NCBI GenBank assembly: GCA_034520365.1
Contig: JAXHNP010000007.1
Location: forward strand, 868,001 to 932,000
Length of the DNA: 64,000 bases
Direction of reading: 5' to 3'
From: Desulfobacterales bacterium
Lineage (GTDB): Bacteria; Desulfobacterota; Desulfobacteria; Desulfobacterales; Desulfosalsimonadaceae
Below the pieces are notes generated by a model. It ran no database searches. It was given only the letters and a program-made list of their open reading frames with translations, and was not told the DNA's origin. The translations under genes were made by a program, and so were the position numbers. Each line of letters starts with the position of its first letter. Position 1 is the stretch's first letter. This document shows, one piece after another, positions 35,084 to 37,774 of the stretch.

Positions 35084-35244
35084 CACATGCGAGAAACCCC
35101 ATGGTTATGGGGTTGTTTGCCAGAACAAATTCACCGTGTGACAGGTAAGTGGTTATTTGATTTATTATTTTAGTTATATCGGAAATGCCGTGCCAGTCAA
35201 GAAAACAATGGGATTTAAACGGGTTGCTGGCTTGGCCGGGAAGA

Positions 35245-35303
35245 GTCAGGATTGGTAATGTTGTCAGGATTGGTAATTGACAAACTGGAAATGATTGTAT
35301 AAG
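35245..35303 (+). promoter_or_regulatory. aroF promoter with 15-bp direct repeat
   Basis: GTCAGGATTGGTAAT occurs at 35245-35259 and again at 35263-35277, an 18-bp period. The second copy runs into TTGACA at 35277-35282; TATAAG follows at 35298-35303 (15-bp spacer, shorter than ideal). The start site would be near 35310, 30 bases before the leader peptide. Repeats on one face at the -35 box suggest an operator; the protein is unknown. Confidence 0.45.
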
Positions 35304-35339
35304 AGAAAATAAAGATATTTTAAATTTCGGGAGTTTTTG

Positions 35340-35426
35340 ATGATTCAAACTTATCGGCAATGGTTCTGGTACTGGTGGCGCAGGCGTCATAGCCAGGGGT
35401 GGGCCGTGCGGCAGGTACCGATTTAG
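35340..35426 (+). CDS. aromatic-rich attenuator leader peptide of aroF
   Basis: A 28-codon frame with GGGAG six bases before its ATG and a TAG stop. Residues 8-13 read WFWYWW, and Y5 and W21 add two more: eight aromatic residues in 28, against almost none expected in a random frame this long. Tandem codons for the end products of the pathway are the mark of leader peptides such as trpL and pheL. The peptide ends 27 bases before the terminator stem and 99 before the DAHP synthase gene. Its role is translation-rate sensing, not a protein function. Confidence 0.88.
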   Translation: MIQTYRQWFWYWWRRRHSQGWAVRQVPI

Positions 35427-35500
35427 CCGTCTAACCGATAAGTAACTGATCCAAAAACCGCGGAGCCTCTCCCATAGAGAGCCCGCGGTTTTTTTATTTT
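35396..35500 (+). terminator. transcription attenuator (antiterminator / terminator) before aroF
   Basis: Terminator: AAAAACCGCGG (35453-35463), inner stem CTCTC/GAGAG, CCGCGGTTTTTTT (35483-35495). Antiterminator: bases 35396-35411 (GGGGTGGGCCGTGCGG) can pair with 35458-35473 (CCGCGGAGCCTCTCCC) at 13 of 16 positions, counting G-U, which uses up the terminator's 5' arm. A further 9-bp pair, ACTTATCGG (35349-35357) and CCGATAAGT (35435-35443), brackets the peptide. A ribosome stalled at the Trp cluster (35361-35378) leaves 35396-35411 free; one that reaches the stop codon covers it. Confidence 0.85.
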
Positions 35501-35525
35501 AAAGGCATATCAATGGAGGTGAATC

Positions 35526-36533
35526 ATGTTAATCGTCATGCGCCGGGATGCCGGTGAAGAACAGGTCGAAACAGTCATCCGTGCACTGGAGGCCAAGGGG
35601 TATCAGGCCCGGCCCATACCCGGGGGCGACCGGGTATCCATCGCCGTGTTATTTAACAAGGAACCGGTGGATCCGGCCTGGGCACAGGAACTGCCGGGGG
35701 TTAAGGAGGCGATTCCCGTCACCCGTCCCTTTAAGCTGGTCAGCCGCGAAACCAAGCCGGAGGATACGGTGGTCACGGTGGGCGATATCCGTATCGGCGA
35801 CCGGGGAATGGCGATTATTGCCGGGCCGTGCGCCATAGAGGATGAGGACCGGGCCATGCGGATTGCCGAGCAGGTCAGTTCGGCCGGTGCGCATTTATTC
35901 CGGGGCGGGGCGTTTAAGCCGCGTACCTCGCCGTATTCTTTTCAGGGATTGGGGGAGGGGGGCCTTAAGATCCTTGAAAAGGTCCGGGAGACCTTTGGCA
36001 TGCCGGTGGTCACGGAAGTAATGGACCTTGAGTGCTTTGATATGGTGGAGGCTTATGCGGATATCGTGCAGATCGGCACCCGGAACATGCAGAATTTCAG
36101 TCTCCTTCGCCGGGCGGGCCAATCCCGCCGCCCCGTGCTGTTAAAACGGGGCATGTCGGCAACTGTTGACGAATGGCTCATGGCCGCGGAATATATCATG
36201 GCCGAAGGCAACGCGGATGTTATTTTATGCGAGCGCGGGGTGCGCACGTTTGTCCGCCACAGCAGAAATACCCTGGATTTTTCGGCCGTTCCCGTGGTGC
36301 AGCGGGAAAGCCATCTGCCGATCATCGTGGACCCCAGCCATGCGGCCGGGTTCCGGGACCAGGTCATGCCGCTGGCCCGGGCCGCCGCTGCGGTCAACGC
36401 CCACGGCGTGATGGTGGAGGTTCACAATGAGCCGGAAAAAGCCCGAAGCGACGGCGTGCAGTCCCTTTACCCCCATCAGTTTGAAACCCTTTGCAGACAG
36501 ATGCGGGCGATCTATGATATTGTGCAGCATTAG
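35526..36533 (+). CDS. aroF: 3-deoxy-7-phosphoheptulonate (DAHP) synthase, type I-beta
   Basis: First enzyme of the shikimate pathway: phosphoenolpyruvate plus erythrose 4-phosphate to DAHP. 335 residues. The first about 65 form the ferredoxin-like regulatory domain known from Thermotoga DAHP synthase (MLIVMRRDAGEEQVETVIRA), which mediates feedback inhibition by Tyr or Phe. The barrel has IAGPCAIE, GGAFKPRTSPYSFQG, QIGTRNMQNF, LKRGMSATVDEWLMAAEYI, and the metal-binding DPSHAAG. GGAGGT precedes the ATG. It lies behind the attenuator and 213 bp before aroB; both enzyme and transcript thus seem tuned to aromatic amino acids. Confidence 0.95.
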   Translation: MLIVMRRDAGEEQVETVIRALEAKGYQARPIPGGDRVSIAVLFNKEPVDPAWAQELPGVKEAIPVTRPFKLVSRETKPEDTVVTVGDIRIGDRGMAIIAGPCAIEDEDRAMRIAEQVSSAGAHLFRGGAFKPRTSPYSFQGLGEGGLKILEKVRETFGMPVVTEVMDLECFDMVEAYADIVQIGTRNMQNFSLLRRAGQSRRPVLLKRGMSATVDEWLMAAEYIMAEGNADVILCERGVRTFVRHSRNTLDFSAVPVVQRESHLPIIVDPSHAAGFRDQVMPLARAAAAVNAHGVMVEVHNEPEKARSDGVQSLYPHQFETLCRQMRAIYDIVQH

Positions 36534-36544
36534 AGTAACACCTA

Positions 36545-36660
36545 AAATTAACGCTCGCTCCGTACTCGTACGCGTGCTCGTACTCGTAATCGGCATTTAA
36601 ATTTTTCGAGTACGAGTACGAGAGCCGTCCCGCTTGCGCGGGACTGAGTACGATCAGTTT
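36545..36660. repeat. CGTACTCGTA repeats and hairpins between aroF and aroB
   Basis: CTCGTACTCG (near 36575) and CGAGTACGAGTACGAG (36608) form an inverted pair made of 6-base units GTACTC. Immediately after, GTCCCGCTTGCGCGGGAC is a perfect 7-bp hairpin. At 36701-36735 comes CCTTCTCCCTCTGGGAGAAG, a separate repeat also found at 59431-59458. Function unknown; it may weaken readthrough from aroF into aroB. Confidence 0.6.
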
Positions 36661-36745: not shown

Positions 36746-37774
36746 ATGAAAACACGCACCATATCCGGCCAGACCGGCAAGTCCCAAATTCTGGCGGGCG
36801 AATCTTTAGACAACCTGGCGGGTTATCTGCCCGCCGGACGCACTGTCATCATTACCGATGATAATGTCGAAAGGCTCTACAGCGCCGCGTTTCCCAGCCG
36901 GGAGGTGATCCCCGTCGGCCAGGGCGAGGCCGTTAAGACCCTGGAGACCGTATCCGCGATTTATGACCAGCTGATCGAATCCCAGGCGGACCGCTCGGTA
37001 TTCCTGTTGGGCATCGGCGGCGGGATTGTCTGTGATATTGCCGGGTTTGTCGCATCCACTTACCTGCGTGGCGTGCGCTTCGGATACGTGCCCACCACGC
37101 TGCTGGCCCAGGTGGATGCCAGCGTGGGCGGCAAGACCGGGGTGAATTTTCGGGGGTATAAGAATATGGTGGGGGTGTTCAATCAGCCCGGGTTTGTGCT
37201 GTGCGACCCCCGGGTGTTAAAGACCCTGCCGGCAAGAGACCTTGCCTGCGGATTTGCCGAGGTGGTCAAACACGCGGCCATTTACGATGCGGATTATTTT
37301 GAGTTTCTGGAGCAGGAAGCGAGCCGTGCCCGATCCCTTGATCCTGAAGTCATGACGCGGGTGGTGTATGATTCCATTGCCATCAAGGCCGATGTGGTGA
37401 GCCGGGATGAGCGGGAAAAAGGCGAGCGCCGCAAATTGAACTTCGGCCATACCTTCGGCCATGCGGTGGAAAAAACCGAAGGCCTGCCGCATGGGGAGGC
37501 GGTTGCCATCGGGATGATGATGGCCGCACGCCTGTCCATGAGCCGGCATATGCTGGATCAAAAATCCGTCGATCGCCTGGCCGCCTTGCTGTCGGCATTC
37601 CACCTGCCTCTTGAAAGCCAAGTGGACCAAAAACAAATCATGGATGCCCTGGCCCGGGACAAAAAGCGCGAAGGCGATGAAATCCACTTCGTGCTTTTGG
37701 AACGCCTCGGCCGGGCCGTGGTTCAGGCTATTCCCATCAGTGAATTGCAGGAGTTGATTGGACTTTCGGAATGA
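36746..37774 (+). CDS. aroB: 3-dehydroquinate synthase AroB
   Basis: Second shikimate-pathway enzyme, an NAD- and metal-dependent lyase turning DAHP into dehydroquinate. 342 residues with LGIGGGIVCDIAGFVASTYL, VPTTLLAQVDASVGGKTGVN, and the metal ligands in GFAEVVKHAAIYD (Glu), NFGHTFGHAVEK (His) and GLPHGEAVAIGM (His). Length is standard. No convincing Shine-Dalgarno: GGGATGAGGG, part of a dispersed repeat, lies 12 bases upstream and may serve. It follows aroF on the same strand, the same two-step order as the pathway. Confidence 0.95.
   Translation: MKTRTISGQTGKSQILAGESLDNLAGYLPAGRTVIITDDNVERLYSAAFPSREVIPVGQGEAVKTLETVSAIYDQLIESQADRSVFLLGIGGGIVCDIAGFVASTYLRGVRFGYVPTTLLAQVDASVGGKTGVNFRGYKNMVGVFNQPGFVLCDPRVLKTLPARDLACGFAEVVKHAAIYDADYFEFLEQEASRARSLDPEVMTRVVYDSIAIKADVVSRDEREKGERRKLNFGHTFGHAVEKTEGLPHGEAVAIGMMMAARLSMSRHMLDQKSVDRLAALLSAFHLPLESQVDQKQIMDALARDKKREGDEIHFVLLERLGRAVVQAIPISELQELIGLSE

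Follow-up and report, generated by a model that had tools for sequence, protein, structure and literature searches.

A leader peptide with mixed aromatic codons and a predicted attenuator in front of DAHP synthase in Desulfobacterota

The window, the whole 64,000-nucleotide stretch of a Desulfobacterales genome analysed here, carries a short reading frame rich in aromatic codons, followed by a hairpin and by aroF. Is this frame a leader through which a translating ribosome controls DAHP synthase, and if so, which amino acids does it read? The first-pass annotation had proposed a complete attenuator at this site. Our analysis confirms its observation of a leader and a terminator and supports the attenuator interpretation: judged from sequence comparison, a ribosome-mediated transcription attenuator very probably controls aroF, or aroF together with aroB.

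The aroF leader and its conservation

All features of the locus lie on the forward strand. The leader ORF (35340-35426; ATG at 35340, stop codon TAG at 35424-35426) encodes the 28-codon peptide MIQTYRQWFWYWWRRRHSQGWAVRQVPI and is preceded, six bases upstream of its ATG, by the ribosome-binding site GGGAG (35329-35333). Eight residues are aromatic, six of them consecutive: codons 8-13 (35361-35378) read WFWYWW, the putative regulatory codons, which we compared with those of relatives. The peptide, its aromatic content and its good ribosome site can all be read directly from the sequence as the first-pass annotation had described them. Further upstream, a promoter-like site, TTGACA and TATAAG separated by 15 nt (35277-35303), matches 11 of 12 consensus letters. 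Eight of 13 family members inspected score 10-11 of 12 at this site, and 34 of the 62 leaders described below reach at least 10 of 12, with a mean of 9.5 compared to 8.2 in shuffled sequences; a promoter scan using spacers of 16-18 nt did not report the window's site, with its 15-nt spacer.

Downstream of the peptide, a hairpin spans 35453-35488 and is followed by seven T (35489-35495), as had been claimed. Its 5′ arm (35453-35474) is segment 3 of the attenuator, which would also serve as the 3′ strand of the antiterminator, and its 3′ arm together with the T-run (35480-35495) is segment 4; both are supported by folding and by covariation. The ribosome-binding site of aroF, GGAGG, lies at 35515-35519, and the 26 bp previously given as its distance from the hairpin hold when counted from the hairpin end, the distance from the last T being 19. 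The folded leader RNA reaches −67.8 kcal/mol, compared to −48.6 in shuffles (sd 4.0, z −4.8), and folding from 35385 onward alone gives a z of just −1.32. A consensus terminator scan listed none at the aroF leader, though the fold shows the hairpin, probably because its stem is bulged.

The regulated gene, aroF (35526-36533), encodes a type I-beta 3-deoxy-7-phosphoheptulonate (DAHP) synthase of 335 residues, with matches to NF006421 and TIGR01361 above cut-off. It is followed by aroB (36746-37774; 3-dehydroquinate synthase, TIGR01357 above cut-off), which is possibly co-transcribed with it; an aroB match lies just 3′ of aroF for 35 of the 52 leaders without trpE in the order set. Between the two genes, at 36540-36660, we noted a repeated GAGTACGAGTACGAG-like sequence.

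A scan of the window in 566 tiles returned the WFWYWW leader as the sole core with four tryptophans; at most 45 further tile rows contained two or three, mostly intragenic among those inspected. The search against the Rfam Trp_leader family that the first-pass annotation had recommended yielded no relevant match: at the gathering score nothing relevant was found in the whole window, Trp_leader included, and at E-values up to 10 the region 35200-35700 gave five matches, all to other families. A riboswitch or T-box at this position was rejected, there being no Rfam match for it.

To follow the leader across relatives, we searched 195 of them, 188 of which had a DAHP synthase match. We collected the upstream DNA of 88 near-full-length aroF orthologues, including the window's own and excluding partial or contig-edge ones (G020, G025, G035, G180), and counted the 85 regions with at least 300 nt. 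The pattern, for which we required a start codon, a terminator and at least two tryptophans in a stretch of five codons, occurred in 62 of the 85 regions, compared to 21 of 425 shuffles and 3 of 85 reverse strands. With at least three tryptophans in the core, the counts were 50 of 85, 1 of 425 and 1 of 85, and this one reverse-strand match, NDLTIWWW, is the core of a trpE leader divergent to the aroF of its genome (G056). Relatives with the same aroF thus keep the peptide and the hairpin, as the attenuator proposal predicts: a short translatable ORF with clustered codons for end products of the pathway, and an intrinsic terminator between it and the gene. Within the named set, the pattern was present in 9 of 75, namely seven MAGs titled Desulfobacterales or genera thereof and two Acidobacteriota. 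The latter (L211, L212; Blastocatellia, Pyrinomonadaceae) have an AAWYWW leader and a terminator before a DAHP synthase of the same type.

The pattern was absent from 23 of the 85 regions. In some of these, aroF follows another gene, which in three cases (L053, L055, L062) resembles trpF or trpA, judged by eye without a search. Three others (L016, L017, L030) keep the hairpin before aroF, with no W peptide found; L017 has a promoter-like site immediately 5′ of it. As the detection demands tryptophan, leaders without it are invisible to it. An all-aromatic criterion (at least three aromatic residues in five codons, and a terminator) was satisfied by 3 of the 23 regions, compared to 7 of 230 shuffles. 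One region, L075, has MNIFHQIYFKFNSVLAYKYCFLQ and then a hairpin upstream of aroF and may carry a Phe/Tyr leader without Trp. The matches of an upstream-region search in L007, L015, L016 and L062 were judged spurious by eye. Six of the 62 leaders had odd or doubtful anatomy (L014, L035, L046, L071, L074, L078) and were dropped from the permutation and ribosome folding described below, for which 56 were kept. Alignment A1 comprises 38 of these and alignment A2 the 20 leaders of family f1; 18 divergent leaders are in neither.

The terminator covaries strongly across these sequences. In A1, 95.5% of its positions were paired, and its covariation score was matched by none of 500 shuffles. The compensatory changes expected in this stem were present, with both sides changed in 9 of its 11 pairs.

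Competing helices and ribosome position

The antiterminator would be formed by segment 2 (35396-35413; comparative core 35403-35413) and segment 3. The first-pass annotation had 35396-35411 pairing with the terminator 5′ arm at 13 of 16 positions, and had the Trp cluster ending 17 nt before this segment; counting by hand, with G-U pairs included, reproduces the former for 35459-35474, and the spacing is likewise correct. The register of this stem was the best among those scanned, and in both alignments it was paired more often than slid versions (63.2% vs 30.5-50.0% in the 38 sequences of A1; 77.5% vs 28.0-52.5% in the 20 of family f1). Column-wise covariation was not seen in either set, with 181 of 500 shuffles scoring as high in the 38 sequences, where two slid versions also had higher covariation scores than the true register, and 165 of 500 in the 20 of f1. 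The core columns are nearly invariant.

A simple comparison of own and foreign segments 3 gave a weak signal (mean fraction of equal-or-better foreign partners 0.42), and a matched permutation took its place. Over 48 distinct segments, segment 2 paired with its own segment 3 at −12.7 kcal/mol, compared to −11.7 with permuted partners, a difference reached in 10 of 10,000 permutations, to which relatedness among the leaders can add. Of the compensatory changes anticipated for this stem, what is observed is conserved complementarity with permutation support, without column covariation.

A third helix would act as protector. Segment 1 (TGG TAC TGG, 35367-35375) lies within the regulatory codons and pairs with 35412-35420, in the codons of the peptide tail. 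In family f1, 89.3% of the cells of this helix 1:2 were paired, compared to at most 59.3% for slid versions, and none of 500 shuffles had as high a covariation score. Both sides had changed in four of nine pairs, a count equalled in 40 of 500 shuffles; at the middle codon, for example, TAC occurs with GTA and CGC with GTG. Outside f1 the helix is weak, so that a protector overlapping the regulatory codons is supported in this family only. As its 3′ strand lies mostly just 3′ of segment 2, helix 1:2 would keep segment 2 in its loop.

We propose that these helices would act in the following way. RNA polymerase would start near 35310, followed by a ribosome translating the 28 codons of the leader. 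If aminoacyl-tRNA for Trp, and by extension for Phe or Tyr, were scarce, the ribosome would stall within WFWYWW and cover segment 1. This would leave segment 2 (35396-35413) free to pair with segment 3 (35459-35474), no terminator would form and aroF would be transcribed. With all three amino acids plentiful, the ribosome would reach the TAG at 35424, its footprint would cover segment 2, hairpin 3:4 would form and transcription would stop at about 35495. If the leader were not translated at all, the W-x-W codons could pair with 35412-35420, segment 2 would be looped out and termination would again be favoured. The kinetics, the tRNA signal and termination itself we infer.

To model these states, we moved a ribosome mask codon by codon along the RNA and folded the sequence as far as segment 3 at each step; the mask was assumed to extend 12 nt from the first base of the A-site codon. 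In family f1 (20 leaders), the antiterminator had a probability of 0.57 with no ribosome, of 0.38 with the ribosome at the stop codon, and of 0.83-0.89 with the ribosome at any codon from the fourth before the last W to the fifth after it. In the 36 other leaders the respective values were 0.72, 0.43 and, from four codons before to four after the last W, 0.81-0.86, with 0.75 at five. The stalled state, with the mask on the last four core codons, exceeded both other states in 43 of the 56 leaders and did not do so in 13. For the window's leader the probability was 0.83 with no ribosome and fell to 0.44 at the stop; masks on the last four core codons raised it to 0.90-0.96, and those on the first two, W8 and F9, gave 0.77-0.78, below the value with no ribosome. 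In this model, only its stop state is well separated. The distance from cluster to stop is 48 nt in 16 of the 20 members of f1.

Amino acids read by the leader

Which amino acids the attenuator might sense can be approached by comparing leaders in front of different genes. The genome of the window has three classes of aromatic leader: that of aroF, that of trpE (MTAKSIHTIEISNNGGWWWWIQINGSANGCL, with the core WWWW and two terminators by eye), and that of a second DAHP synthase, a fusion with prephenate dehydratase (TIGR01361, NF008865), whose leader is rich in phenylalanine (MPDYRHINREFFCRRFFFSFRSVHPAA) and is also followed by terminators. F-rich leaders were found by pattern before 34 of 41 such second genes, and by eye before two more (L127, L132). 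In this class, represented by L002 (G000:C2:208052-209044, minus strand) and L123-L161, the peptide is of the form ...RFFFxFRSVHP... and the terminator arm of the CCCCGGGTGGAC type; by eye, the RSVHP codons are complementary to that arm. A search for TrpR (PF01371) gave no match in the genome (99.39% completeness), which sets the locus apart from TrpR-regulated genes of the aroH type.

At an E-value of 0.01, a covariance model of A1 found matches in 222 of the 395 genomes searched across the phylum, other terminators among them. We classed 90 of its best 100 matches; of the remaining ten, eight were in genomes of the order search and two at contig ends. The classed matches preceded trpE (39), aroF-trpE (16), aroF without trpE (9), iorA (7) and other genes (19, six of them without a W cluster). 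In the aroF-trpE class (L246-L251, L253-L258, L265, L270, L311, L315), aroF and then trpE form one apparent operon with one leader, nearly always W-rich. W-rich leaders with a terminator also precede iorA, encoding the indolepyruvate ferredoxin oxidoreductase alpha subunit (L269, L271, L273, L277, L280, L286, L308, and L261), and such a leader hints that in these genomes the enzyme has a part in making Trp from aryl acids. Others stand before genes that by eye resemble trpB-like and trpD (L281, L282, L285, L289, L293, L295, L299, L300, L307, L320).

For each leader we recorded whether F or Y occurs within the W cluster or in either of the two preceding codons. This held for 44 of the 56 leaders before aroF without trpE (F 26, Y 27), 9 of 20 aroF-trpE leaders (F 9, Y 0) and 15 of 67 trpE leaders (F 8, Y 11), where 'without trpE' was judged from about 320 to 1500 nt of downstream DNA, so that a more distant trpE is possible. 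Fisher's exact test gave 3e-10 for aroF alone against trpE, 0.009 for aroF alone against the operon and 0.08 for the operon against trpE, and 3e-5 for Tyr in aroF alone against the operon; as the leaders are related, these values overstate certainty. Counted by group, F or Y was present in 19 of 26 families for aroF alone, 2 of 5 families for aroF-trpE and 8 of 50 groups for trpE, the latter being families within the order and single genomes in the phylum sample. The trpE upstream regions came from 31 loci, 30 of them with at least 240 nt. From the classed matches of the covariance model, the count drew 15 of 16 aroF-trpE, 4 of 9 aroF and 38 of 39 trpE leaders, the rest being in genomes already included; L014 was left out, as were L046, L049, L054 and L090, which have too little downstream DNA. 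An earlier count with a fixed five-codon window had found F or Y at 4 of 32 and 0 of 12 positions in aroF-trpE operons, undercounting F because long W runs had displaced it.

A count by position agrees with this. Among the non-W positions of the five codons before the last W, aroF leaders had F or Y at 42 of 124 and trpE leaders at 10 of 75. The remainder of the same aroF peptides had 62 of 752; the corresponding background of the trpE leaders was 25 of 447, slightly below their 10 of 75 (p 0.02). Here, one leader per genus was used within f1 and every genome outside it, omitting L014, L046 and L078.

Trp looks like the signal common to these leaders, whose detection required Trp codons. The sequences suggest that Phe and Tyr are probably sensed in addition, a reading we favour because codons for these two residues appear with DAHP synthase genes located away from the trp operon, and because no single base change turns TGG into any of them. 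The main alternative, less probable in our view yet a serious one, is an attenuator exactly as described that senses Trp only, with the Phe and Tyr codons as bystanders or fixed by RNA pairing. Tryptophan is indeed the residue common to the clusters, if also the one demanded by detection. Further, the middle codon of W-x-W pairs with codons of the tail in helix 1:2, so that a Tyr there can be structural, and both F and Y are missing from 12 of the 56 clusters before aroF without trpE. The aroF-trpE operons hold aroF in five families, and pairing aroF with trpE leaders genome by genome, in 12 genomes, gave no significant difference in F/Y content (p 0.22). Against Trp-only sensing stand the excess of F and Y in aroF leaders over both trpE leaders and the remainder of the same peptides, and the presence of Tyr in 27 of the 56 clusters and none of the 20 in aroF-trpE operons. 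Also, turning TGG into a Phe or Tyr codon takes two base changes, so that these codons are not a one-step decay of Trp codons. Finally, the antiterminator also formed with ribosome masks at neighbouring codons; as the effective positions are broad in the family, Phe and Tyr codons beside Trp codons would act too. The first-pass annotation's suggestion that the peptide senses all three amino acids is thus favoured by the codon comparison and not by the paired test.

Across Desulfobacterota, the codon content of the leaders follows the gene downstream: W before trpE, W and some F before aroF-trpE, W with F or Y before aroF(-aroB) alone, and F before the fusion gene. From the sequences, it looks as if Phe and Tyr codons were gained by those leaders whose DAHP synthase supplies the common pathway. 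By a narrow preference, we lean towards a tri-aromatic integrator at the entry to the shikimate pathway, in which one leader would read Trp, Phe and Tyr and its codons would follow the scope of the downstream gene. On this reading, departure of DAHP synthase from the trp operon would have been accompanied by a recoding of its attenuator to suit the wider pathway.

Two further readings were weighed. An ordinary terminator next to a chance short ORF, with no translational regulation, would fit the three regions that retain the hairpin without a W peptide, but is highly improbable given the frequency of cores with at least three tryptophans compared to shuffles, the regular spacing in family f1 and the covariation of helix 1:2. 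We give as little credence to an arrest peptide that senses free Trp, like TnaC, and not charged tRNA: translation could be slowed by a nascent chain rich in Trp, but substitutions at codon positions 1, 2 and 3 (78, 85 and 98 over 19 close pairs) show no third-position excess, so that the peptide is hardly conserved beyond the W cluster and the RNA-constrained tail, and the leader residues track the downstream pathway (W or F), as expected for sensing at the codon level. A functional small protein was rejected on the same lack of third-position excess over these 19 pairs.

Comparison with known attenuators

Desulfobacterota are a phylum with little-studied regulation, which gains here a testable set of aromatic attenuators whose leader codons name the signal. 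The set offers a natural comparison in which the amino-acid specificity of an attenuator changes as its gene switches operon, and the leaders alone suggest roles for genes, such as iorA.

According to the first-pass annotation, attenuation at DAHP synthase is not known to have been described in this phylum. In bacteria at large it is already known: in Corynebacterium glutamicum, the AroR leader before aroF contains Phe-Tyr-Phe, and transcription rises on Phe limitation and is unaffected by Tyr, according to PMC11802643, which also names the trpL and pheL/pheA attenuators, and PMC4046766; PMC7356990 names AroR too. In Acholeplasma, uORFC-13-1 before aroF is predicted, with 24 representatives and at least one Phe codon described (PMC8632094). 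A Shewanella aroF element is listed in PMC2659441, where the reference for a Tyr attenuator is to work in E. coli, and PMC1173090 describes a database of putative attenuators screened for tyrA operons and discusses a Desulfovibrio vulgaris supraoperon. PMC1183508 names the thr and ilv operons. Term searches found no aroF, DAHP or Desulf in PMC2965389 and no delta-proteobacteria or Desulf in PMC4833913. A literature search on attenuation of DAHP synthase and trp genes in the group, and on iorA, with subscription journals mostly outside its range, returned no paper on this leader among the matches listed, so that an earlier description may exist.

The window's leader resembles AroR in being a leader-peptide attenuator before DAHP synthase. 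AroR, from Actinobacteria, reads Phe-Tyr-Phe, whereas the leader described here reads WFWYWW and is thus not of the AroR type. With uORFC-13-1, which belongs to another lineage, it shares an upstream ORF and a terminator before DAHP synthase.

The trpL and pheL/pheA attenuators of E. coli have tandem cognate codons and alternative 2:3 and 3:4 hairpins, and other E. coli leaders have codons for several end products, Thr and Ile in thrL and Leu, Val and Ile in ilvL. Like trpL (Rfam Trp_leader) and pheL/pheA, the leader described here combines a short ORF, tandem cognate codons, predicted alternative hairpins and an intrinsic terminator before the first gene. In contrast to them, its target is DAHP synthase and not trpE or pheA, its codons are a mixture of W, F and Y without an Rfam match, and the partner of its W codons in the protector helix lies within the ORF, for the most part immediately 3′ of segment 2. 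Like thrL and ilvL, it is a single leader whose codons cover more than one end product of a branched pathway; unlike in these, the products are the three aromatic amino acids and the control would be at the entry to the shikimate pathway.
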